This document shows, piece by piece, positions 27,411-41,866 of a stretch of 64,000 nt of DNA (its first letter is position 1; each line of letters opens with the position of its first letter). Below the pieces are notes generated by a model that was given only the letters and a program-made list of their open reading frames with translations, was not told the DNA's origin and ran no database searches. Source of the DNA: Sphingomonas sp. AP4-R1 (GTDB lineage Bacteria; Pseudomonadota; Alphaproteobacteria; Sphingomonadales; Sphingomonadaceae); the NCBI RefSeq assembly GCF_013113735.1, contig NZ_CP053346.1, forward strand, positions 1,316,001 to 1,380,000, given 5' to 3'. Both the position numbers and the translations under genes were made by a program.

Positions 27411-28460
27411 CTAAGCGCTCGGCGCCAGCGTCTTGCGGCGCCGGAGAGTCGAGATTTCGACCAGCTGCCAGCTGATGAGGCCGACCAGAGCCAGCGCGCC
27501 GTCGCGGGCGCGCTTCACCAGTGAGAGGGCGAGGGCCGGGCCGGGCGGCAGGCCGAACAGCGGGCCCACCACCGCATAGGCGGCCTCCTGCAGGCCGAGC
27601 CCGCCGGGCACGAGGAAGGCGGCGCTGCGGACCACCGCGATCGCCGATTCGATCGCCACCATCCGCCAGAAGGGCAGAGGATGGCCGATCAGCTGCAGGA
27701 TCAGCCACGCCACCGCCGCCATCGCCAGCCAGGCGAGCAGATTCCACAGGAAGCTCAAAGCGATGCGGTGCGGCGCGCGATAGAGGCGCGTCAGCTCGGC
27801 GCTCGTCTCGCTCACGATGGCGGAGAGGCCGGGCAGCACCCGGCCGGCGAGGCCGGACACGAAAGTCAGGAAACGGCCCTGCCCGAACAGCAGCGCCATG
27901 AGCAGAATCCCCAGCATCACCACGCCACCGATGATCGAGCGCCGCAGCGCCGCATGCGCCGGATCGGCGGTGAGAAGCGCCGTCGCCGCCGCGACGCCGG
28001 CCAGCGAGAACAGGATCTGGCTGGCCATCTCCGTCGCCTGATCGGCCATCATCGAGGCATAGATGCGCGGCGCGGGAATGCCGCCCGTGCGGATCACGCG
28101 CGCGCCGGCGGCCATGCCGCCGATCTGCGAGAAAGGCAGGAAATCGGACGCGGCCTCCCGCACCAGCCGGGCGAGGCTGAACAGCGGGACGCGGCGGAGC
28201 GGTTCACCCGCCGCCGATTGCCATGCCGCGCCGAGCAGCGCGAACAGGCCGATCGAAGCGATGCAGACGAGCAGGAAGCCACCGATGCCCATCTGTCGCG
28301 CCGATTCCGCGATGTCGCCCAGGCCGATCGAACGGACGAGCCAGACGGTGACGCCGAGTCCGAGCAGCAGGGCGGCCGCCCAGGCGATGCGTCCGACCGG
28401 CCCCGCGACACGCCGTTTGGCGGGCGCGGTCTGCGCGACGTCGTCGAAAGGATCGGTCAG
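27411..28460 (-). CDS. hpnL: hopanoid-associated membrane protein HpnL
   Basis: This is an integral membrane protein of the HpnL/UPF0104-type (flippase-like) family. VREAASDFLPFSQIGGMAAG and VPGGLGLQEAAYAVVGPLFG are the conserved loops, and there are about eight membrane segments. The first ATG (28292) would cut off an N-terminal helix that is plainly encoded upstream in the same frame (WAAALLLGLGVTVWLVRSIG). No ATG, GTG or TTG exists before the frame closes near 28527. A CTG at 28460 (MTDPFDDVAQTAPAK if initiated there) has AAAGG eight bases upstream, so I propose that start (349 residues). It overlaps nothing and follows the ferritin-like gene by 17 bases. Confidence 0.82.
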   Translation of the reverse strand: MTDPFDDVAQTAPAKRRVAGPVGRIAWAAALLLGLGVTVWLVRSIGLGDIAESARQMGIGGFLLVCIASIGLFALLGAAWQSAAGEPLRRVPLFSLARLVREAASDFLPFSQIGGMAAGARVIRTGGIPAPRIYASMMADQATEMASQILFSLAGVAAATALLTADPAHAALRRSIIGGVVMLGILLMALLFGQGRFLTFVSGLAGRVLPGLSAIVSETSAELTRLYRAPHRIALSFLWNLLAWLAMAAVAWLILQLIGHPLPFWRMVAIESAIAVVRSAAFLVPGGLGLQEAAYAVVGPLFGLPPGPALALSLVKRARDGALALVGLISWQLVEISTLRRRKTLAPSA

Positions 28461-28477
28461 CGGCGTGGCCTTTATTT

Positions 28478-29401
28478 CTATTTCGGTGCGAACTTGAGCG
28501 CGAGCCGCATCATCGCGGGCACGAACTTAGGCCGCTTCAGGCGCTTGTCATAGGGGGCCAGCCGCCGATCATTTTCGGCCAGGCAGATGCGGGCGAGTTC
28601 GGGGAAGGAAACCTCCACGCCCAGCTCCTTCGAGCCGTTCAGCGTGAAATTGTTTTCCTGCGCCCTCGTATTGTCCTTGCCCATGCCCTTGGCGATCGAG
28701 ATGCGCTCGAGGATCAGCGCCATCCAGACGAGGATCACCTTCGCCTCGAAGATCGGGCGGCGCCACCAGGGCATGGTCCGCCGCCACCACGCCACCCAGT
28801 TCACGAAGAACAGGATGTGGCGGCCCTCCTCGCGCATCACCGGCTCGAACGTGTCGACCAGTTCGTCCGGAAAGAAGCCCGTATCCTTGGCGATCCTGAA
28901 CAGGCCGAAGCCGAAGAAACTGTCGATGCACTCGGAATAGCCGGTCCGCATGAAGGCGAATTCGGGATCGCGTGGCACCTTATATTCCGGCTCGGGCTCG
29001 AGCTCGATGCCATAGGCCTGCACCATATCGGCCAGCACCACCTTGTGGCGGCGCTCCTCATAGGCGTTCATCACCACGGCTTCGCGCAGCAGCGGATCGC
29101 CGATCCTGTCGGCATAGGTCTTCACGTTCATCGACGCGCGGCCCTCGGTCGCGACGGCGATATCCCAGATGGGCAGGCTGACGATGCGGTTGCGCGTCTC
29201 GGGCGTCAGCTCCGGCCATTCGATCAGCGCCGGACGGTAGGGATCGTGCGTGTCGAGCAGCATGCGCGACAGCAGCCGCCGATGCTCGGGCGAGCCCATG
29301 CGGATCTGTGCGTGCGGAGGCGGTGGCGCCTCGAACGTGGCGGGTGAAATGGTGAGCGGCGCGAGTTCTGGATGCTTACGCGAAGGTACTGAAGTTGCCA
29401 T
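28478..29401 (-). CDS. ferritin-like diiron protein in hopanoid operon
   Basis: This 307-residue protein shows a complete four-helix diiron ligand set in ferritin order: Glu86 (VATEGRAS), Glu116-x-x-His119 (NAYEERRHKV), Glu157 (GYSECIDS) and Glu192-x-x-His195 (MREEGRHILFF). Near residues 200-235 come hydrophobic, Trp-rich helices (FVNWVAWWRRTMPWW and AKVILVWMALILE) that could hold it at the membrane. The family oxidises, hydroxylates or desaturates substrates with O2. It lies between hpnK (26-base overlap) and hpnL, so it is very likely part of hopanoid tailoring. The exact reaction is unknown; side-chain hydroxylation or ring desaturation are guesses from the fold. Confidence 0.85.
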   Translation of the reverse strand: MATSVPSRKHPELAPLTISPATFEAPPPPHAQIRMGSPEHRRLLSRMLLDTHDPYRPALIEWPELTPETRNRIVSLPIWDIAVATEGRASMNVKTYADRIGDPLLREAVVMNAYEERRHKVVLADMVQAYGIELEPEPEYKVPRDPEFAFMRTGYSECIDSFFGFGLFRIAKDTGFFPDELVDTFEPVMREEGRHILFFVNWVAWWRRTMPWWRRPIFEAKVILVWMALILERISIAKGMGKDNTRAQENNFTLNGSKELGVEVSFPELARICLAENDRRLAPYDKRLKRPKFVPAMMRLALKFAPK

Positions 29402-30185
29402 GCCTCACTCCCTTGCCGACCAAAATCGACTTGGCAACCGGATCGACCAGGGCCGCCAGTTCGTCGCGATAGCGATAGCCGGGCGCGGAGCCCGGATAGA
29501 CATCGGCGGTGGCGGGATGCGTGTAAATTTCGGTGAGGCCGGGGTGCAGATCGGCCAATGCCGTCTGCATGCGTGCCGCGTCGAAGGCCCCGCTCCAGGC
29601 GAGGCCCACCACCTGATCCGGCACGGAGAGGCCCGCCCGCCGCAGTCTCTTCTGCAGTTTCCCGGCCCACCAACTCTCGATGCCGCGTGCGCCATGCTCG
29701 ACCGGCGCGCGGACGGATTTCATGCCGAAGCGGCGGCCGACCTTCAGGATCGTGGACGCGATCATCGGGTGCAGGTGGAAATGCTTGTGCGCGTTCACAT
29801 GATCGAGCGGCAGCCCGGTGGCGGCGAAGGCCGCGAACTGCGCCTCGATCTCCGCCTCCAGCTGGCGCCGCGCGGCGGCCGAGAGCGCGATGGCGAAGGC
29901 CATACCGACCATGTCGGTGCGGAACAGTCCGTCCGCGCCGACCAGCGAGGGCACGCGCTCGGGCGGAAGGGCCGGGCGGCCTTCCACCAGTACGAGATGG
30001 AGGCCCACACCGAGCAAGGGCAAAGCGCGCGCCCGCGCGACGGCGTCGTCCACCGCATCGCCGGTCACCATCAGGCTCGCCGCCGTCAGGATTCCGTCGC
30101 GATGCGCCTGCTCGACCGCGTCATTGACGGGCAGGGAGACGCCGAAGTCGTCAGCCGTGACGACCAGTCGGCGCTCGTTCGTCAT
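29376..30185 (-). CDS. hpnK: hopanoid deacetylase HpnK
   Basis: This 269-residue YdjC/ChbG-type deacetylase begins RRLVVTADDFGVSLPVNDAV, with the metal-binding Asp-Asp pair. It has VGLHLVLVEGRP and HVNAHKHFHLHPMI, with the conserved histidines. In Burkholderia-type pathways HpnK removes acetate from N-acetylglucosaminyl bacteriohopanetetrol made by HpnI, giving glucosaminyl-BHT, the precursor of the cyclitol ether. It overlaps the ferritin-like gene by 26 bases and starts 4 bases after the hpnJ stop. Confidence 0.93.
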   Translation of the reverse strand: MTNERRLVVTADDFGVSLPVNDAVEQAHRDGILTAASLMVTGDAVDDAVARARALPLLGVGLHLVLVEGRPALPPERVPSLVGADGLFRTDMVGMAFAIALSAAARRQLEAEIEAQFAAFAATGLPLDHVNAHKHFHLHPMIASTILKVGRRFGMKSVRAPVEHGARGIESWWAGKLQKRLRRAGLSVPDQVVGLAWSGAFDAARMQTALADLHPGLTEIYTHPATADVYPGSAPGYRYRDELAALVDPVAKSILVGKGVRHGNFSTFA

Positions 30186-30189
30186 ATCC

Positions 30190-31638
30190 TCAGGCCGCGG
30201 CTTTGCGCTTGCGGAGGAAGTCGAAGAATTCCACGCCCTCGCGCAGGCGGCGCTTCATCATGTCCCAGTCGCGCACCATTTCGCCCACGATCGCGCCGAT
30301 CTTGCGGGGGCGGAAATAGAAGCGCTTGTAGAATTCCTCGACCTTGTCGAAGATCACCGCCGCCGGCAGGTGCGGATAGGAAAGCTGCGCGATCTGCGTG
30401 CCGCCGTCCGTCAGCAGATGATCGGTTCCGTCGAACCAGTCATTCTCCACCGCCTGCTTGTACAGGAAGGTGCCGGGATAGGGCGCCGCCAGCGACACCT
30501 GGATGGTGTGCGGGTTGATCTCCTTGGCATATTCGATCGTTTCCTCGATCGTCTCCAGCGTCTCGCCGGGCAGGCCGAGGATGAAGGTGCCGTGGATCAC
30601 GATGCCGAGTTCGTGGCAGTCCTTGGTGAACTGCCGCGCGACATCGACGCGCAGGCCCTTCTTGATGTTGTGCAGGATCTTCTGGTTGCCGCTCTCATAG
30701 CCGACCAGCAGCAGGCGCAGGCCGTTTTCCTTGAGCACCTTCAGCGTTTCGTAGGGCACGTTCGCCTTGGCGTTGCAGCTCCACGAAATCGGGAAGCCGG
30801 GCTTGCCGAAGCCGAGCTTGCCCAGTTCGATCGCCAGTTCCTCGGTGCGCTTGCCGTTGTCGGTCAGCGTATCGTCGTCGAAGAAGATCTCCTTGATCTC
30901 GGGCATCTCCTTCAGGACGTATTTCACCTCCTCGATCACATGGCCGATCGAGCGGGTGCGATAATTGTGACCGCCCACCGTCTGCGGCCACAGGCAGAAG
31001 GTGCAGCGGCTCTTGCAGCCGCGGCCGGTGTAGAAGCTGACATAGGGGTGGCGCAGATAGCCGCCGAAATATTTCTCGATCTGCAGGTCACGCTTGTAGA
31101 TGGGCGACACGAACGGCAGCGAGTCCATGTCCTCGATGACGGCACGATCCTTGTTGTGGATGATGCTGCCGTCCTCGGCGCGATAGGAAATGCCCTCCAC
31201 GTCGGCCAGCTTCATGCCGTTGGCGATGTCGAGGATCGTGAAATCGAATTCGTTGCGCGCGACGAAATCGATCGCGGGCGTCGCTTCCAGCACCTTGGCG
31301 CTTTCCACCGCAGCCTTGGCGCCGATGAAGCCGATCATCGCCTTGGGGTTGCGCGCCTTGATCAGGTTGGCGGTCCGCACGTCCTGCCCGAAGCTGGGCG
31401 TGGAGGTGTGGAGGACGACCAGTTCCTTGTCGTCCATCTCATGCGCGATGTCTTCCCACGTCTGGTCGTGCGCGGGCGCGTCGATCAGGCGCGAGCCCTC
31501 GACGAGCGCGGCGGGCTGGGCGAGCCAGGTGGGATACCAGAAGGAGCGCACCTCGCGCTTCATCTGATAGCGGGCGCCGGCGCCCCCGTCATAGCCATCG
31601 AAAGAGGGCGCCTGAAGGAACAGCGTGCGTAACGTCAT
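30190..31638 (-). CDS. hpnJ: hopanoid biosynthesis radical SAM protein HpnJ
   Basis: This 482-residue enzyme has an N-terminal cobalamin-binding-like domain (about residues 1-180) and a radical SAM core. The cluster motif is GRGCKSRCTFCLWPQT (CxxxCxxC). TLFLQAPSFDGYDGGAGARY is the usual HpnJ start. The family contracts glucosaminyl-BHT to the BHT cyclitol ether. The stop of hpnI overlaps its ATG (4 bases). A basic tail (DFLRKRKAAA) ends the protein. Confidence 0.95.
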   Translation of the reverse strand: MTLRTLFLQAPSFDGYDGGAGARYQMKREVRSFWYPTWLAQPAALVEGSRLIDAPAHDQTWEDIAHEMDDKELVVLHTSTPSFGQDVRTANLIKARNPKAMIGFIGAKAAVESAKVLEATPAIDFVARNEFDFTILDIANGMKLADVEGISYRAEDGSIIHNKDRAVIEDMDSLPFVSPIYKRDLQIEKYFGGYLRHPYVSFYTGRGCKSRCTFCLWPQTVGGHNYRTRSIGHVIEEVKYVLKEMPEIKEIFFDDDTLTDNGKRTEELAIELGKLGFGKPGFPISWSCNAKANVPYETLKVLKENGLRLLLVGYESGNQKILHNIKKGLRVDVARQFTKDCHELGIVIHGTFILGLPGETLETIEETIEYAKEINPHTIQVSLAAPYPGTFLYKQAVENDWFDGTDHLLTDGGTQIAQLSYPHLPAAVIFDKVEEFYKRFYFRPRKIGAIVGEMVRDWDMMKRRLREGVEFFDFLRKRKAAA

Positions 31639-32768
31639 GGGACCGGAAACTCCTCGGGCGATGCGATGCGCCCTTTGCTGGTCATTTTAAGCATCGTTCC
31701 CCGCCAATCAACACGCCGGACCAAGAAGCTGGCCACGTACACGACGAATGACAGGAGATCGCGTGCCGGAAGCCACACCAAAGGGAGAGGTACGGAGCCG
31801 ACGATGCGGGCGGTGCGGCGGGCGACGGCCAGCCGGATTGCGATGGCCGCGAGCGCTATGGCGAGTCCCACCAGCGGATAGGCCGGCAGGCCCAGCAGCG
31901 CGAGCGGGAGCGGATTGGTGAACAGCAGGCCGAGATAGCGCACGCCGGTTACGACGCGGACGGTGCCCGCCCACCGCAGTTCGTGGCGCCAGAGCGCGGC
32001 GAAGCTCGACTCGGTGCAGGCATGGGTGAGCAACAGGCCGGGCACCATCTCGACCCGCAGGCCGAGCGCTTGCACGGCCGTGCCGATCGCATGATCGTCC
32101 GCCAGGTGATCGGCCAGAGCGGGAAAGCCGCCGATCGTCTCAAGCGTTGCGCGGCGGAGCGCGATGGTGGAGCCCATGCAGGGCTGGTCCACCTTGAGCG
32201 CGAGGCTCATCATCACGGCGGGGGTGAAGCTCCAGTCGATCGCGGCGGCGAGCAGGCGCGACCACAGGCCGGCGTCGCCGCGCCCATGATAGAGGCAGGA
32301 GACGGCGCCCACGCCCGGCTGGGCGAGCGCGGCGGCGATGCGCGCGACATAATCGCGCGGCACGGCCATGTCGCTGTCGCTCAGGATCAGCAGATCGTGC
32401 GCGGCGGCGGGCATCATGTTGGCGAGGTTCGAGACCTTGGCGTTCGCGCCGAGCTTTGGCGCGTCGGTCGTGACCGCGGCGGGCAGGGCGCGCGCGATCG
32501 GCAGCGCGGGATCGTCGCGCCGGTTGGTGCCGAACACGATCTGCACCGGCGCGGGCCAGTCCTGATCGAGGAAGGTGGCGAGATTGTCGGCGAGCCGGGG
32601 CTCGGGGCCGTGCAGCGGCTTCAGCAGGGTGACCGGCTCGATCGGGGCGGCCGCCGCGCGCGGCGCGCGGGCGAACGCCTTCATCGCGACGAGGACGTGG
32701 ACCTGATAGCCGATGCCGGCCACGGCCAACAGCAGGCACAGGCCTCCGAGGATTGCCGCGAGGGACAT
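31635..32768 (-). CDS. hpnI: hopanoid glycosyltransferase HpnI
   Basis: This 377-residue GT2-type membrane glycosyltransferase is expected to transfer N-acetylglucosamine to bacteriohopanetetrol. An N-terminal anchor (LAAILGGLCLLLAVAGIGYQ) precedes the GT-A domain: VTLLKPLHGPEPRLADNL, LLILSDSDMAVPRDYVARI with the DxD, then the Q/RxxRW-like HELRWAGTVRVV. Two or three C-terminal helices follow. It is the first gene of the leftward hpnI-J-K-(diiron)-L operon and diverges from hpnA across 136 bases. Confidence 0.94.
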   Translation of the reverse strand: MSLAAILGGLCLLLAVAGIGYQVHVLVAMKAFARAPRAAAAPIEPVTLLKPLHGPEPRLADNLATFLDQDWPAPVQIVFGTNRRDDPALPIARALPAAVTTDAPKLGANAKVSNLANMMPAAAHDLLILSDSDMAVPRDYVARIAAALAQPGVGAVSCLYHGRGDAGLWSRLLAAAIDWSFTPAVMMSLALKVDQPCMGSTIALRRATLETIGGFPALADHLADDHAIGTAVQALGLRVEMVPGLLLTHACTESSFAALWRHELRWAGTVRVVTGVRYLGLLFTNPLPLALLGLPAYPLVGLAIALAAIAIRLAVARRTARIVGSVPLPLVWLPARDLLSFVVYVASFLVRRVDWRGTMLKMTSKGRIASPEEFPVP

Positions 32769-32904: not shown

Positions 32905-33897
32905 ATGAACGGGATCGTGCTGGTGACCGGCGTCTCGGGCTTTCTCGGCTCGGCAGTGGCGCGCGCCCTTGCGGGCGAGGGGCAGAGGATACGCGGGCTC
33001 GTCCGCGCCTCCAGCCCACAGGGCAATCTCGCGGACTTTCCGGGCGAACTGGTCGAGGGCGATCTGCGCGATGCCGCCGCCGTCGGCCGGGCGATGGCGG
33101 GCGTGGAGCGCCTCTATCATGTCGCGGCCGATTATCGGCTGTGGGCGCGCGATCCCGAGGACATCGTCCGCAACAATCGCGCGACCACCCGTATCGTGAT
33201 GGAGGCGGCGCTGGCGGCGGGCGTGGCGCGGATCGTCTATACGAGCAGCGTCGCCACGCTGCTGCCCGATCCGGACGGCCCTTCGGATGAAACGCGCGCC
33301 GGATCGCCCGAGACGGTGATCGGCGCCTACAAGCGCAGCAAGGTGGAGGCGGAGCGGCTGGTGGAGGCGATGGTGCGCGAGCGCCACCTGCCCGCCGTGA
33401 TCGTGAACCCGTCCACGCCGATCGGCCCGCGCGACGTGAAGCCCACGCCGACCGGCCGGATCATCGTGGAGGCGGCCAACGGCAAGATGCCGGCCTATGT
33501 CGATTCGGGGCTGAACCTCGTCCATGTCGATGACGTGGCGAAGGGGCATCTGCTGGCGATGGAGAAGGGCCGGATCGGCGAGCGCTACATATTGGGCGGC
33601 GATGACGTGTCGCTCGGCGCGATGCTGGGCGCCATCGCCCGGCTGGTCGGGCGCCGCCCGCCGACGGTGCGCCTGCCGCGCGGGCCGCTCTATCCGCTGG
33701 CCTGGGCCAACGAGAAAGTGGCGCAGGTGACGGGCAAAGAGCCTTTCCTGACATTGGATGCGCTGCGGATGTCGGGCTATTCGATGTTCTACAGTTCGGC
33801 CAAGGCCAGGGCCGAGCTGGGCTATGCCGCGCGGCCGCATGGCGAGGCGCTGGCCGATGCGGTGGCGTGGTTCCGCACGACGGGGGCGATCCGGTGA
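32905..33897 (+). CDS. hpnA: hopanoid-associated sugar epimerase HpnA
   Basis: This 330-residue short-chain dehydrogenase/epimerase has the NAD(P)-binding motif VTGVSGFLGSAVARALAGEG. The active-site elements are YTSSVATLLPD and YKRSKVEAERL (YxxxK). HpnA proteins are placed in hopanoid loci as nucleoside-diphosphate-sugar epimerases; the precise substrate is not established. It opens the rightward hpnA-B-C-D-E-shc-hpnG operon, in which almost every gene overlaps the next by a GTGA or ATGA. Confidence 0.95.
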   Translation: MNGIVLVTGVSGFLGSAVARALAGEGQRIRGLVRASSPQGNLADFPGELVEGDLRDAAAVGRAMAGVERLYHVAADYRLWARDPEDIVRNNRATTRIVMEAALAAGVARIVYTSSVATLLPDPDGPSDETRAGSPETVIGAYKRSKVEAERLVEAMVRERHLPAVIVNPSTPIGPRDVKPTPTGRIIVEAANGKMPAYVDSGLNLVHVDDVAKGHLLAMEKGRIGERYILGGDDVSLGAMLGAIARLVGRRPPTVRLPRGPLYPLAWANEKVAQVTGKEPFLTLDALRMSGYSMFYSSAKARAELGYAARPHGEALADAVAWFRTTGAIR

Positions 33898-35015
33898 TCG
33901 CGGGCGTTATCGCATTGATTGTGCTGGCAATCTGGATCGGGTTGGCCGCCACCGGCTTCTGGCGGACCGATCAATATGATGCGCGGCTGTCGCTGGCGTC
34001 GCCGGAGCAGTGGCCGGACGTGGTGGCGGTGGTGCCCGCGCGCGACGAGGCGGACGTGATCGCGCGATCGATCGGGAGCCTCGCCGCGCAGGATTATCCG
34101 GGTAATTTCCGGATTCTGCTGGTGGATGACGACAGCAGCGACGGCACCGGCGATGTGGCGCGTTCGATCGCGAGCGACCGGGTGACGGTGTTGCGGGGCA
34201 AGACGCTCGCGGCGGGCTGGACCGGCAAGCTCTGGGCGCTGAGCCAGGGCATCGCGGCGGCAGGCACGCCCGATTATCTGTGGCTGACCGACGCCGACAT
34301 CGCCCATGCGCCGGATACGCTGCGGACGCTCGTGTCGATCGCCAAGGCGGGCGACCGGCAGCTGGTGAGCTTCATGGCGCGGCTGCATTGCGACCGGCGG
34401 GCCGAGCGCGCGCTGATCCCGGCCTTCGTCTGGTTCTTCCAGTTGCTCTACCCGTTCGCCAAGGTGAACCGGCCGGGGCGGATGGCGGGCGCGGCGGGCG
34501 GCTGCGTGCTGGTGCGCCGCGACGGGCTGGAGCAAGCAGGCGGGATCGGCGCGATCCGGGGCGCCCTGATCGACGATTGTACCTTGGGAGCCTTGATGAA
34601 GACGCAGGGGCCGATCTGGCTGGGGCTCACGGATCGCTCGCGGAGCATCCGGCCCTATGAGGATGCGGGGGCGATCGCGCGGATGATTGCGCGATCGGCC
34701 TATGCCCAGCTGCATTATTCGCCGTGGCGGCTGGCGGGCACGCTGGTCGGGCTGGCGCTCGTCTATCTCTCGCCGCCTGTCTTCGCTGTATTCGGGACGG
34801 GCCTGGCGCAATGGGCCGGCCTTGCCGCGTGGCTGGTGATGGCGGCTCTGTTCCAGCCGATGCTGGCCTTCTACCGGCGCTCGCCGCTGTGGGGGCTTGC
34901 ATTGCCCGGCATCGCCGCTTTCTACAGCGGCTGCACCTTCCTCTCCGCCTGGCAGCATGCGCGCGGACGCGGCGGCATGTGGAAGGGCCGCGCACAGGCG
35001 GCGCTCGGCCAATGA
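33894..35015 (+). CDS. hpnB: hopanoid glycosyltransferase-like protein HpnB
   Basis: This 373-residue GT2-family membrane protein starts at a GTG overlapping the hpnA stop. It has an N-terminal helix (GVIALIVLAIWIGLAATGF), the GT-A core VVAVVPARDEADVIARSIGS, DDDSSDGTGDVA, and WLTDADIAHAPDTL with a DxD. Three C-terminal helices follow. HpnB is conserved in hopanoid clusters as a glycosyltransferase, but its product is not firmly known. Confidence 0.94.
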   Translation: MIAGVIALIVLAIWIGLAATGFWRTDQYDARLSLASPEQWPDVVAVVPARDEADVIARSIGSLAAQDYPGNFRILLVDDDSSDGTGDVARSIASDRVTVLRGKTLAAGWTGKLWALSQGIAAAGTPDYLWLTDADIAHAPDTLRTLVSIAKAGDRQLVSFMARLHCDRRAERALIPAFVWFFQLLYPFAKVNRPGRMAGAAGGCVLVRRDGLEQAGGIGAIRGALIDDCTLGALMKTQGPIWLGLTDRSRSIRPYEDAGAIARMIARSAYAQLHYSPWRLAGTLVGLALVYLSPPVFAVFGTGLAQWAGLAAWLVMAALFQPMLAFYRRSPLWGLALPGIAAFYSGCTFLSAWQHARGRGGMWKGRAQAALGQ

Positions 35016-37954: not shown

Positions 37955-39922
37955 ATGCACGGATCGCTTCTTTCCTCTTCCGCCGATCGGCTCGCCGCCT
38001 CCGACGAGGCCGTTTCCGAAGCGGTGGCGGCGCTGGCCGCCGCCCAGCGCGACGATGGCCACTGGGTGTTCGAGCTGGAGGCGGACGCCACCATTCCCGC
38101 CGAATATGTGCTGTTGCGCCATTATCTGGCCGAGCCCGAGGATCTGGAGCTGGAGGCGCGGATCGGCCGCTATCTGCGCCGGATCCAGTCGGCCGAGCAT
38201 GACGGCTGGCCGCTCTATCATGGCGGCGCCTTCGATATCAGCGCGACGATCAAGGCCTATTTCGCGCTGAAGATGATCGGCGACGATCCGGCCGCGCCGC
38301 ATATGGAGCGGGCGCGCAAGGCGGTGCTGGCCGCCGGGGGCGCGGAGGCATGCAATGTCTTCACGCGCATCCAGCTGGCCTTGTTCGGCTGCGGATCGTG
38401 GGATGCGGTGCCGACGATGCCGCCCGAGCTGATCTTCGCGCCGCGCTGGCTGCCGGTGCATCTCTACAAGATGAGCTATTGGGCGCGGACCGTGGTGGTG
38501 CCCCTGCTCGTGCTGGCGGCGCTGAAGCCTTTGGCGCGCAATCCGCGCGGCGTGCGCGTGGACGAGCTTTTCTCGGGCAGTCCGGCGGCGCTGAAGAGCC
38601 AGGCGGCGCAGAAGAGCTGGATCTGGACGGCGGGCTATACCGGGCTCGACAGGCTGCTGAAGGCGGGCGACGGGCTGTGGCCCAAGGGGCTGCGGACGCG
38701 CGCGATCAACGCCTGCCGCGACTGGGTGGTGGAGCGGCTCAACGGCGAGGATGGGCTGGGCGCCATCTATCCGGCGATGGCGAACAGCGTGATGATGTTC
38801 GATGCGCTGGGCGTGCCCGCCGACGATCCGAAGCGGGCGATCGCGCGCAAATCGGTGGAGCTGCTGCTCGTCCACCGCGAGGGCGAGACCTATTGCCAGC
38901 CCTGCGTGTCGCCCGTGTGGGACACGGCGCTGGCCGCGCACGCGATGCTGGAAGTGGGCGAGCCCGAGGCGGAGGCGATGGCCGATCGCGCGCTCGCCTG
39001 GCTGAAGCCGCTGCAGGTGCTGGATGTGGAAGGCGACTGGGCGGACGAGCGGCCGGGCGTGCGGCCGGGCGGCTGGGCCTTCCAGTATCGCAACGATCAT
39101 TATCCCGATCTCGACGATACCGCCGTGGTGGTGATGGCGATGGACCGCGCGGCCGGGCGGGCCGCCGGCGGTGCGGCGGGCGATTACGGGCAGGCGATAT
39201 CGCGCGGCATCGAGTGGACTGTCGGGCTGCAGTCGAAGAATGGCGGCTGGGGCGCGTTCGATGCGGACAACAGCCACGATCATCTGAACAACCTGCCCTT
39301 CGCCGATCATGGCGCGCTGCTCGATCCGCCGACGGCGGACGTGTCGGCGCGCGTCGTCTCGATGCTGGCGCAGAAGGGCGAGCCGCTGGAGAGCCCGCGC
39401 ATGCAGGCGGCGCTGGGCTATCTGCGCGCCGAGCAGGAGCCGGAAGGCAGCTGGTTCGGCCGCTGGGGCGTGAACTTCATCTATGGCACCTGGTCGGTGC
39501 TGTGCGCGCTCAACGCGGCGGGCGTGGACCGCGCCGATCCGATGATCGCGAAGGCGGTCGACTGGCTGAACGCGATCCAGAATGCGGATGGTGGCTGGGG
39601 CGAGAGCTGCGACAGCTATGATCTGGCGCGCGTGGCGCATGTGGCGGCGCCGTCCACGGCCTCGCAGACGGCGTGGGCTCTGCTGGGGCTGATGGCGGTG
39701 GGCGAGGTCGGCTCGCCGGCTGTCGCGCGCGGGATCGAATGGCTCGTCCGTCATCAGGAGGATGACGGGCTGTGGGGGCAGGAATATTATACGGGCGGCG
39801 GTTTCCCGCGCGTCTTCTACCTGCGCTACCACGGCTATCCGAAATATTTCCCGCTGTGGGCGCTGGCGCGCTACCGCAACCTCGTTCGCTCGAACGATGG
39901 AGCCGTGAAGTGGGGCATGTGA
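37955..39922 (+). CDS. shc: squalene-hopene cyclase
   Basis: This 655-residue monotopic membrane enzyme cyclises squalene to hopene and diplopterol. The catalytic acid motif DLDDTA is at residues 385-390. Several QW repeats are visible, including QSKNGGWGAFD, QEPEGSWFGRWG and QNADGGWGES. The C terminus YLRYHGYPKYFPLWALARY is typical. The length matches the family. It is also called hpnF. The 3' end overlaps hpnG by GTGA. It is the committed step of the locus. Confidence 0.97.
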   Translation: MHGSLLSSSADRLAASDEAVSEAVAALAAAQRDDGHWVFELEADATIPAEYVLLRHYLAEPEDLELEARIGRYLRRIQSAEHDGWPLYHGGAFDISATIKAYFALKMIGDDPAAPHMERARKAVLAAGGAEACNVFTRIQLALFGCGSWDAVPTMPPELIFAPRWLPVHLYKMSYWARTVVVPLLVLAALKPLARNPRGVRVDELFSGSPAALKSQAAQKSWIWTAGYTGLDRLLKAGDGLWPKGLRTRAINACRDWVVERLNGEDGLGAIYPAMANSVMMFDALGVPADDPKRAIARKSVELLLVHREGETYCQPCVSPVWDTALAAHAMLEVGEPEAEAMADRALAWLKPLQVLDVEGDWADERPGVRPGGWAFQYRNDHYPDLDDTAVVVMAMDRAAGRAAGGAAGDYGQAISRGIEWTVGLQSKNGGWGAFDADNSHDHLNNLPFADHGALLDPPTADVSARVVSMLAQKGEPLESPRMQAALGYLRAEQEPEGSWFGRWGVNFIYGTWSVLCALNAAGVDRADPMIAKAVDWLNAIQNADGGWGESCDSYDLARVAHVAAPSTASQTAWALLGLMAVGEVGSPAVARGIEWLVRHQEDDGLWGQEYYTGGGFPRVFYLRYHGYPKYFPLWALARYRNLVRSNDGAVKWGM

Positions 39923-40720: not shown

Positions 40721-41866
40721 TCAGCCGACCGCCTGGACCTTCTTGCCCGCATTGGGCGACTCGGTCTTGATCTTGGCCAGCTCCTTGTCGAGCTGGCTCG
40801 CATAGACGTCCTCGGCCTTGCGGGCCTTGGTCATGTCCAGCTCCGGCGCCATCGGACCTTCGGTCTTCACGCCCTTGCGGCCGATCGCAAACATCTTGAG
40901 CGGATGGCGGATCGCGTCGGTGGCGGCGGTGCCCTCGAAGCCGCAATGCGTCATGCAGTTGGCGCACTTCTCATATTTGCCGACGCCATACTGATCCCAG
41001 TCGGTGCCCTCCATCAGCTCGGCGAAGGTCTGCACATAGCCCTCGCCTATCAGGTAGCAGGGCTTCTGCCAGCCGAAGACGGTGCGCAGCGGCATCGACC
41101 AGGGGGTGCACTGATAGGTCTGGTTGCCCGCGAGGAAATCCAGGAAGAGCGGCGAATTGGTGAAGGTCCACGCCTTGCCGCCATTGCCGCGCGCGAACAC
41201 GTTGCGGAAGAAATTCTTGGTCCGCTCGCGCGTCAGGAAATTCTCCTGATCGGCGGCGCGCTCATAGGCATAACCGGGCGAAAGCGTGATCTCGACGCCC
41301 AGCTTCTCCATCTCGTCGAAGAAGGATGCGAGGCGGGCGGGATCGGCGCCGTCGAACACGGTGCAGTTCACCTGGACGCGGAAGCCCTTGGCCTTGGCCA
41401 GCTCGATCGCCTCGACCGCAACGTCATAGGTGCCCTTCTGGTCCACCGCATGATCGTGCATCTCCTTGTCGCCATCGAGATGGATCGACCAGGTGAAGAA
41501 GGGCGACGGCTTGTAATCGTCGATCTTCTTTTTCATCAGAAGCGCGTTGGTGCAGAGGATCACCATCTTCTTCCTGGCGATATAACCCTCGACGATGCGG
41601 GGCATGTCGCGATGAAGCAGAGGCTCGCCACCCGCGATCGAGACGGCGGGGGCGCCGCACTCGTCGATCGCCTCCATGCACTGCTCGAACGACAGGCGGC
41701 GGTTCAGGATCGCGTCCGGATAATCGATCTTGCCGCAGCCCGGACACGCCAGATTGCAGCGCAGCAGCGGCTCCAGCATGAGCACGAGCGGATATTTGCC
41801 GCCCTTGATGTGCTGACGGAGCGTGTAGGCGCCGATCCGCGCGATCTGGGAGAGAGGCAGGCTCAT
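40721..41866 (-). CDS. hpnH: adenosylhopane synthase HpnH (radical SAM)
   Basis: This 381-residue radical SAM enzyme adds the 5'-deoxyadenosyl radical to diploptene, forming adenosylhopane and so creating the C5 side chain. The cluster motif is RCNLACPGCGKIDYP (CxxxCxxC). AGGEPLLHRDMP and a C-terminal Cys set (CANCMTHCGFEG) are the usual HpnH features. It runs leftward with ispH 10 bases upstream, so the pair form one operon. Confidence 0.96.
   Translation of the reverse strand: MSLPLSQIARIGAYTLRQHIKGGKYPLVLMLEPLLRCNLACPGCGKIDYPDAILNRRLSFEQCMEAIDECGAPAVSIAGGEPLLHRDMPRIVEGYIARKKMVILCTNALLMKKKIDDYKPSPFFTWSIHLDGDKEMHDHAVDQKGTYDVAVEAIELAKAKGFRVQVNCTVFDGADPARLASFFDEMEKLGVEITLSPGYAYERAADQENFLTRERTKNFFRNVFARGNGGKAWTFTNSPLFLDFLAGNQTYQCTPWSMPLRTVFGWQKPCYLIGEGYVQTFAELMEGTDWDQYGVGKYEKCANCMTHCGFEGTAATDAIRHPLKMFAIGRKGVKTEGPMAPELDMTKARKAEDVYASQLDKELAKIKTESPNAGKKVQAVG

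Follow-up and report, generated by a model that had tools for sequence, protein, structure and literature searches.

R2lox proteins hold a Mn/Fe cofactor and a Tyr-Val ether crosslink, and diiron enzymes of the R2-like fold class commonly carry out direct C-H oxidation, with desaturation also within reach of diiron chemistry. Here, we describe a ferritin-like diiron protein (hereafter, FLD) encoded in a large hopanoid (hpn) gene cluster of Sphingomonas sp. AP4-R1, within a 64,000-nucleotide stretch of contig NZ_CP053346.1 (positions 1,316,001 to 1,380,000, forward strand; hereafter, the window). Its link to hopanoid biosynthesis is well supported, and we consider FLD a good candidate for the missing enzyme that adds an extra hydroxyl to hopanoids, which are sterol-like lipids.

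The predicted FLD model matches the overall fold of R2lox (PDB 6qrz, 7qbk, 3ee4, 4ac8), but the two share 13% identity and differ in their surrounding genes; no R2lox chain was matched by sequence at E<=10 with either FLD or the family profile, and homology was not detected in these searches. The diiron subunits of ribonucleotide reductase (RNR R2, NrdB-NrdF) likewise have the fold of the FLD model, and many of the 50 matches listed are R2 chains; identity to FLD is 6-13%, and profile matches by sequence are weak (7aik/7ail, E 0.2-0.25). No large RNR subunit was present among 29 neighbour proteins scanned, and FLD is found with hpnH instead. The diiron ferritin superfamily also includes the p-aminobenzoate N-oxygenase AurF (PF11583), rubrerythrin (PF02915) and Ferritin_2 (PF13668), profiles that were matched at E<=0.1 by 15, 13 and 4 of 55 FLD family members (best PF11583 match: E 0.005). 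One relative (P0257) carries PF11583 as a precomputed domain and another (P0315) is named AurF by its source. The window FLD has no PF11583 match at E<=1, and its sole Pfam match at this threshold, to Rubrerythrin PF02915 (15.3 bits), is under the gathering cut-off of 22.8. No NCBIfam family matches FLD at E<=1, none of the curated families names it, and a PDB sequence search with FLD and the family profile returned no convincing relative. To our knowledge FLD has no hpn name; it is a member of an unnamed, hpn-associated diiron family and, like the genes hpnA-hpnR, co-occurs with hpnH and sits in hpn clusters.

The diiron protein and its ligands

A sequence-only reading of the window had described a 307-residue open reading frame (ORF) between hpnK and hpnL with six diiron ligands and a Trp-rich hydrophobic stretch. 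The ORF is exact, with an ATG start, and all of the ligands lie at the residues named:

28478..29401, minus strand: FLD, 307-aa ferritin-like diiron protein, proposed bacteriohopanepolyol (BHP) side-chain C-31 hydroxylase (ORF, ligand conservation, predicted model)
29144..29146, minus strand: codon of ligand E86, invariant in alignments
29045..29056, minus strand: ligand motif E116-x-x-H119, invariant in alignments
28931..28933, minus strand: codon of ligand E157, invariant in alignments
28817..28828, minus strand: ligand motif E192-x-x-H195, invariant in alignments

Loss of these residues in relatives would have spoken against the reading, but all six are invariant in alignments of 17 and 55 sequences (both including the window's own FLD). 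Because of this invariance, and because 7164 of 8000 scored candidates match FLD at E<=0.001, FLD is not a chance ORF. A confident predicted model places all six ligands in an R2/R2lox-like four-helix bundle; predicted helices 79-97, 103-129, 146-174 and 179-209 hold E86, E116/H119, E157 and E192/H195, respectively. With this predicted bundle and its E, ExxH, E, ExxH ligand series, FLD fits the ferritin-like / R2-type superfamily, and the model supports a diiron oxidase fold. The Trp-rich hydrophobic stretch is real, with the best 19-residue Kyte-Doolittle mean (1.64) at residues 222-240, and is modelled as a helix at 215-238.

Occurrence with hpnH and gene neighbourhood

The distribution of FLD was compared with that of HpnH (adenosylhopane synthase, a BHP marker) and HpnJ in two evenly drawn samples, comprising 241 genomes of the class (completeness >=90) and 348 of the phylum (completeness >=85). 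In the class sample, FLD occurs in 17, HpnH in 64 and HpnJ in 19 genomes, and HpnH is present in 17/17 and HpnJ in 9/17 of those with FLD. The phylum sample contains 14 FLD genomes, all with HpnH, which is found in 45 genomes. Seven FLD and nine HpnH genomes are shared between the samples; thus, FLD is present in 24 of 100 distinct HpnH genomes, and all 24 distinct FLD genomes are HpnH-positive. FLD therefore occurs only with BHP pathway genes in these samples, in which the search of HpnH-negative genomes used a limit of E<=1e-10 and scored no more than 10 or 7 candidates from each, a depth at which FLD could be hidden there. Re-searching the 76 HpnH genomes without FLD using a wider profile (E<=0.001) gave no match; this second search covered 80 genomes in all, four from the Novosphingobium group having been added, and its single match, in one of those four, was a fragment of 45 residues and 20 bits. 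FLD and HpnJ are mildly associated across the 64 class genomes with HpnH (nine with both, eight with FLD only, ten with HpnJ only and 37 with neither; Fisher P 0.028). Given that 24/24 FLD genomes have hpnH and 8/17 have no hpnJ, FLD is independent of hpnJ and is tied to BHP synthesis as a whole and not to hpnK/hpnL.

Within the genus group of N. nitrogenifigens, HpnH was found in 32 of 119 genomes (31 over the family cut-off); nine of those 32 carry FLD, which therefore was gained or lost within a genus. The order of G450 has FLD in 2/100 genomes, G599 (which has HpnH) and G748 (in which an hpnL-like gene follows). At L140, L142 and L149 (G748:C56), the order is FLD, a second FLD-type gene (FLD2) and hpnL, and the FLD match passes through one in-frame stop. 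In a plasmid collection, FLD is present in 13 records (Burkholderia, Cupriavidus, Caballeronia, Paraburkholderia), 11 of which also hold HpnH; the other two, from Paraburkholderia phymatum and Caballeronia zhejiangensis, have no HpnH on the same record, a count that covers plasmid records only. Conversely, 20 of 31 HpnH plasmid records have no FLD (Mycetohabitans 9, Azospirillum 7, Streptomyces 2, Roseomonas 1, Methylobacterium 1). With methanotroph aminopentols in mind, we searched 13 genomes that have HpnH and lie beyond the class for PmoA/AmoA (PF02461); a single match resulted, in G450, which is probably from an ammonia oxidiser because this genome belongs to the same order as Burkholderiaceae-like genomes.

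FLD is single-copy in the source genome, where a genome search found this one gene. The minus strand of the large hpn cluster holds hpnI, hpnJ, hpnK, FLD and hpnL, and the plus strand hpnA, hpnB and squalene-hopene cyclase:

27411..28460, minus strand: hpnL, membrane protein, start uncertain, CTG at 28460 plausible (TIGR03476, 223 bits for 27411-28292)
29376..30185, minus strand: hpnK, deacetylase of bacteriohopanetetrol (BHT)-N-acetylglucosamine (TIGR03473, 336.5 bits), 26 bp overlap with FLD
30190..31638, minus strand: hpnJ, radical SAM, BHT cyclitol ether (TIGR03471, 775 bits)
31635..32768, minus strand: hpnI, glycosyltransferase (TIGR03472, 394 bits)
32905..33897, plus strand: hpnA (TIGR03466, 471 bits)
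33867..35015, plus strand: hpnB (TIGR03469, 502 bits)
plus strand: hpnC and hpnD, labels from position alone, with no profile basis
37955..39922, plus strand: squalene-hopene cyclase, hpnF (TIGR01507, 751 bits)
40916..41866, minus strand: hpnH, matched part, adenosylhopane synthase (TIGR03470, 507 bits; contig positions 1356916-1357866)

The overlap with hpnK had been noted from the sequence and amounts to 26 bases. The 17-base gap claimed on the hpnL side is correct if hpnL starts at the CTG at 28460, and fails otherwise, as the first in-frame ATG/GTG/TTG is at 28292. The true start probably lies upstream of 28292 because the TIGR03476 match begins at profile position 36. No ATG/GTG/TTG precedes the conserved N-terminal part of hpnL in 28292-28526 (minus strand). 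A CTG start is possible in seven related loci, since Arg-Leu-Asn/Lys stands in frame near the expected start; this context is not present in the window itself.

A pattern scan of named genomes recovered 300 stretches encoding an FLD relative, and the best 80 were kept as loci. The scan patterns fit 114 of 120 FLD proteins of the sphingomonad type, and records near the source genome were possibly left out. At least one hpn gene is present in 78 of these best 80 loci, hpnK lies <=400 bp upstream of FLD in 72, and 65 combine this with hpnL <=1500 bp downstream. L077:8001-8882 is the one well-flanked FLD of the 80 loci without hpn neighbours, and its three upstream ORFs (303-316 codons) match no NCBIfam family. 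Other arrangements include FLD flanked by hpnJ and hpnA at loci where hpnK was not found (L054, L055, L063), FLD about 4 kb from hpnH (G332) and FLD adjoining hpnA (G055). FLD is on a secondary replicon in Burkholderia cenocepacia (L153) and in Cupriavidus metallidurans CH34 (L154); in the latter, the match to FLD and that to an hpnB-like gene are 28 bp apart. Acetobacteraceae-type and several other genomes have no hpn gene in the ~20 kb around FLD, and the neighbours there are unrelated (e.g., recA, a cobalt transporter gene). No conserved partner gene was found among 20 proteins beside such unlinked FLD genes, nor, apart from hpnA of L055, among nine proteins around L048, L055, L074 and L077. 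Two ~7-Mb Novosphingobium-group genomes (L119, L120; G274, G351) hold hpnIJK without FLD, and their hpnL-like match is distant, inverted and 29-30% identical. The sequence-only reading had held that homologues scattered away from hpn genes would refute it: many do lie elsewhere in the hpn cluster or genome, but in the two samples hpnH accompanies FLD in every one of the 24 genomes.

A second FLD-type match was found in 23 of the 80 loci. In a tree of 63/65 rows, the FLD2 proteins group apart in a clade of their own with full support (8 rows, 100/100), and the three FLD2 rows of the 17-sequence alignment have the same six ligands. FLD and FLD2 are fused in one ORF at L074:3462-5255 (597 residues) and L080:4212-5957 (581 residues), and nine compared database proteins of 548-578 residues are the same fusion. 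In the model of the fused protein (pLDDT 80, pTM 0.53), the relative placement of the halves is unusable.

A candidate hydroxylation step and its rivals

In the parts covered here of a 2025 study of 54 cultured alphaproteobacterial strains (PMC12583986), the genes for bacteriohopanepentol (BHpentol) and bacteriohopanehexol (BHhexol) are called unknown, and a look near the hpn cluster is reported without a candidate. The study discusses hydroxylation of the CH2 beside the tetrol, or oxidation followed by hydration, as the route. Rhodospirillales and Sphingomonadales contain pentols and hexols, Hyphomicrobiales hardly any, and the word "ferritin" is absent from the main text. Within open-licence PMC literature, a scope that mostly excludes subscription journals, no paper was found tying a ferritin-like protein to hopanoids and hpnK. 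Comparison of our FLD loci with Table 3 of that study shows that five FLD-carrying sphingomonads all make BHpentol (values from PMC12583986):

N. nitrogenifigens: 15% pentol plus hexol, 0% unsaturated BHPs
S. mali: 90% pentol plus hexol, 0% unsaturated BHPs
Stakelama sediminis: 20% pentol plus hexol, 0% unsaturated BHPs
S. formosensis: 23% pentol plus hexol, 1% unsaturated BHPs
Sphingobium estronivorans: 41% pentol plus hexol, 0% unsaturated BHPs

FLD is also present in Acetobacter and Gluconacetobacter species, and other species of both genera make pentols (PMC12583986, Table 3). FLD was found in one Burkholderia cenocepacia strain of the plasmid collection, and for another strain of the species a feature with the annotation BHpentol cyclitol ether is reported (PMC8560942, parts covered).

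FLD likely has a role in BHP modification. On balance, and with modest confidence, we favour FLD as a membrane-associated R2-type diiron oxygenase that hydroxylates the BHP side chain at C-31, turning BHT-type into BHpentol-type lipids. The hopanoid modification proposed from the sequence is partly supported: its hopanoid tie is well supported, and of the two examples offered, extra hydroxyls fit best, whereas unsaturation does not agree with the 0-1% unsaturated BHPs of the five strains. We infer the O2 chemistry, the substrate, the C-31 position, membrane docking and the role of FLD2, as follows. A general cellular electron donor would reduce Fe(III)2 to Fe(II)2 in FLD, and O2 would then bind and give a high-valent oxidant between E86, E116/H119, E157 and E192/H195. 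The hopanoid would enter from the membrane, passing the Trp-rich helix 215-238 on its way to this site, the oxidant would take H from C-31, next to the tetrol, and rebound would leave an alcohol. FLD2, which some lineages have in tandem with or fused to FLD, may act as a C-30 hydroxylase (hexol) or serve as a partner subunit; as a guess, a hydroxylase pair or hetero-pair would suit pentol plus hexol. A doubtful extension is that FLD acting on C-31 (pentol) and FLD2, tandem or as a ~577-residue fusion, acting on C-30 (hexol) form a two-step module explaining most proteobacterial BHpentol and BHhexol and marking them as oxygen-dependent products.

Several points weigh against C-31 hydroxylation by FLD. 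The strongest objection comes from the phototroph Rhodopila LVNP, whose lipids, as listed in a paper devoted to anoxic growth (PMC8590665), include BHpentol cyclitol ether. Strict anoxia would leave an O2 enzyme idle, and this pentol may count against a strict need for O2. Aerobic growth of the strain is described as well, and the sections covered do not give the growth condition for liquid chromatography-mass spectrometry. The set of named strains with lipid data is small and its match taken alone is weak: six of the eight BHP-producing Sphingomonadales in Table 3 of PMC12583986 make pentol, so five out of five would arise by chance with a probability of 6/56 = 0.11. Neither the pentol-negative N. 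rosa and S. changbaiensis nor the pentol-positive S. haloaromaticamans are among the 80 kept loci, so that the first two absences allow only a tentative reading, and pentol plus hexol makes up no more than 1% in Rhizomicrobium palustre (PMC12583986). Nostoc and Azotobacter contain pentols too (according to work cited in PMC8560942), and FLD2 occurs in lineages other than Rhodospirillales, the only reported source of hexol (PMC12583986). L048, a 4.6-kb contig, and L077, with 8 kb of sequence to either side of FLD, show no hpn gene, and no common redox partner was found among the 29 FLD neighbour proteins scanned. Hypergeometric P values for FLD with HpnH (2.8e-11 in the class, 5.0e-14 in the phylum) assume independence of genomes that are in fact related, which makes them too small.

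It is conceivable, though unlikely, that FLD oxidises the side chain otherwise, at another carbon or by forming a 32-oxo (or enol) intermediate to which a second enzyme adds water, which would place it on the pentol route without being a direct C-31 hydroxylase. Such an oxidation-hydration route is proposed in PMC12583986, where a 32-oxo-BHT glycoside from Zymomonas is cited. The genome and phenotype correlations hold equally for it, but no recurrent hydratase-like gene was found among the 29 neighbour proteins scanned, and direct C-H oxidation is, as mentioned, common in this fold class. That FLD has no hopanoid substrate and scavenges O2 or peroxide, or acts in repair, shielding HpnH and HpnJ (both radical-SAM enzymes) in aerobes, would agree with its presence only alongside HpnH in both samples and with the weak Rubrerythrin match (15.3 bits vs 22.8). 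We regard this as improbable: 76 of the 100 distinct HpnH genomes do without FLD, and the conserved Trp-rich hydrophobic helix and predicted R2/R2lox-like fold would better fit a lipid substrate.

A role in the cyclitol-ether branch as a partner of HpnJ or HpnK is suggested by the 65 loci with hpnK upstream and hpnL downstream and by the mild FLD/HpnJ association (P 0.028). This role is largely refuted and very improbable, because 8/17 FLD genomes are without hpnJ; 10/19 HpnJ genomes are also without FLD, and the two ~7-Mb Novosphingobium-group genomes hold hpnIJK but no FLD. Barely credible, and again largely refuted, is FLD as the missing hopanoid ring desaturase (delta-6 or delta-11). Diiron chemistry can desaturate, and Acetobacteraceae, most strains of which have unsaturated BHPs in Table 3 of PMC12583986, carry FLD, but the five FLD-carrying sphingomonads have 0, 0, 0, 1 and 0%. 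A function as ribosylhopane-to-BHT reductase was set aside, given 76/100 HpnH genomes without FLD and yet widespread BHT-type lipids, including in Hyphomicrobiales (PMC12583986).

Implications for hopanoid biology

BHpentol and BHhexol are biomarker lipids, and hopanoid fossils are used for reading ancient environments. If FLD is the C-31 hydroxylase, its gene would make pentol producers recognisable in genomes and metagenomes, give a handle on the O2 need of pentol and hexol lipids, and bring an open step within reach of knocking out or expressing a single gene. The diiron R2/R2lox-like enzymes would also gain a branch linked to lipids. If the two-step FLD/FLD2 module is true as well, pentol and hexol would be oxygen-dependent products in the sediment record.
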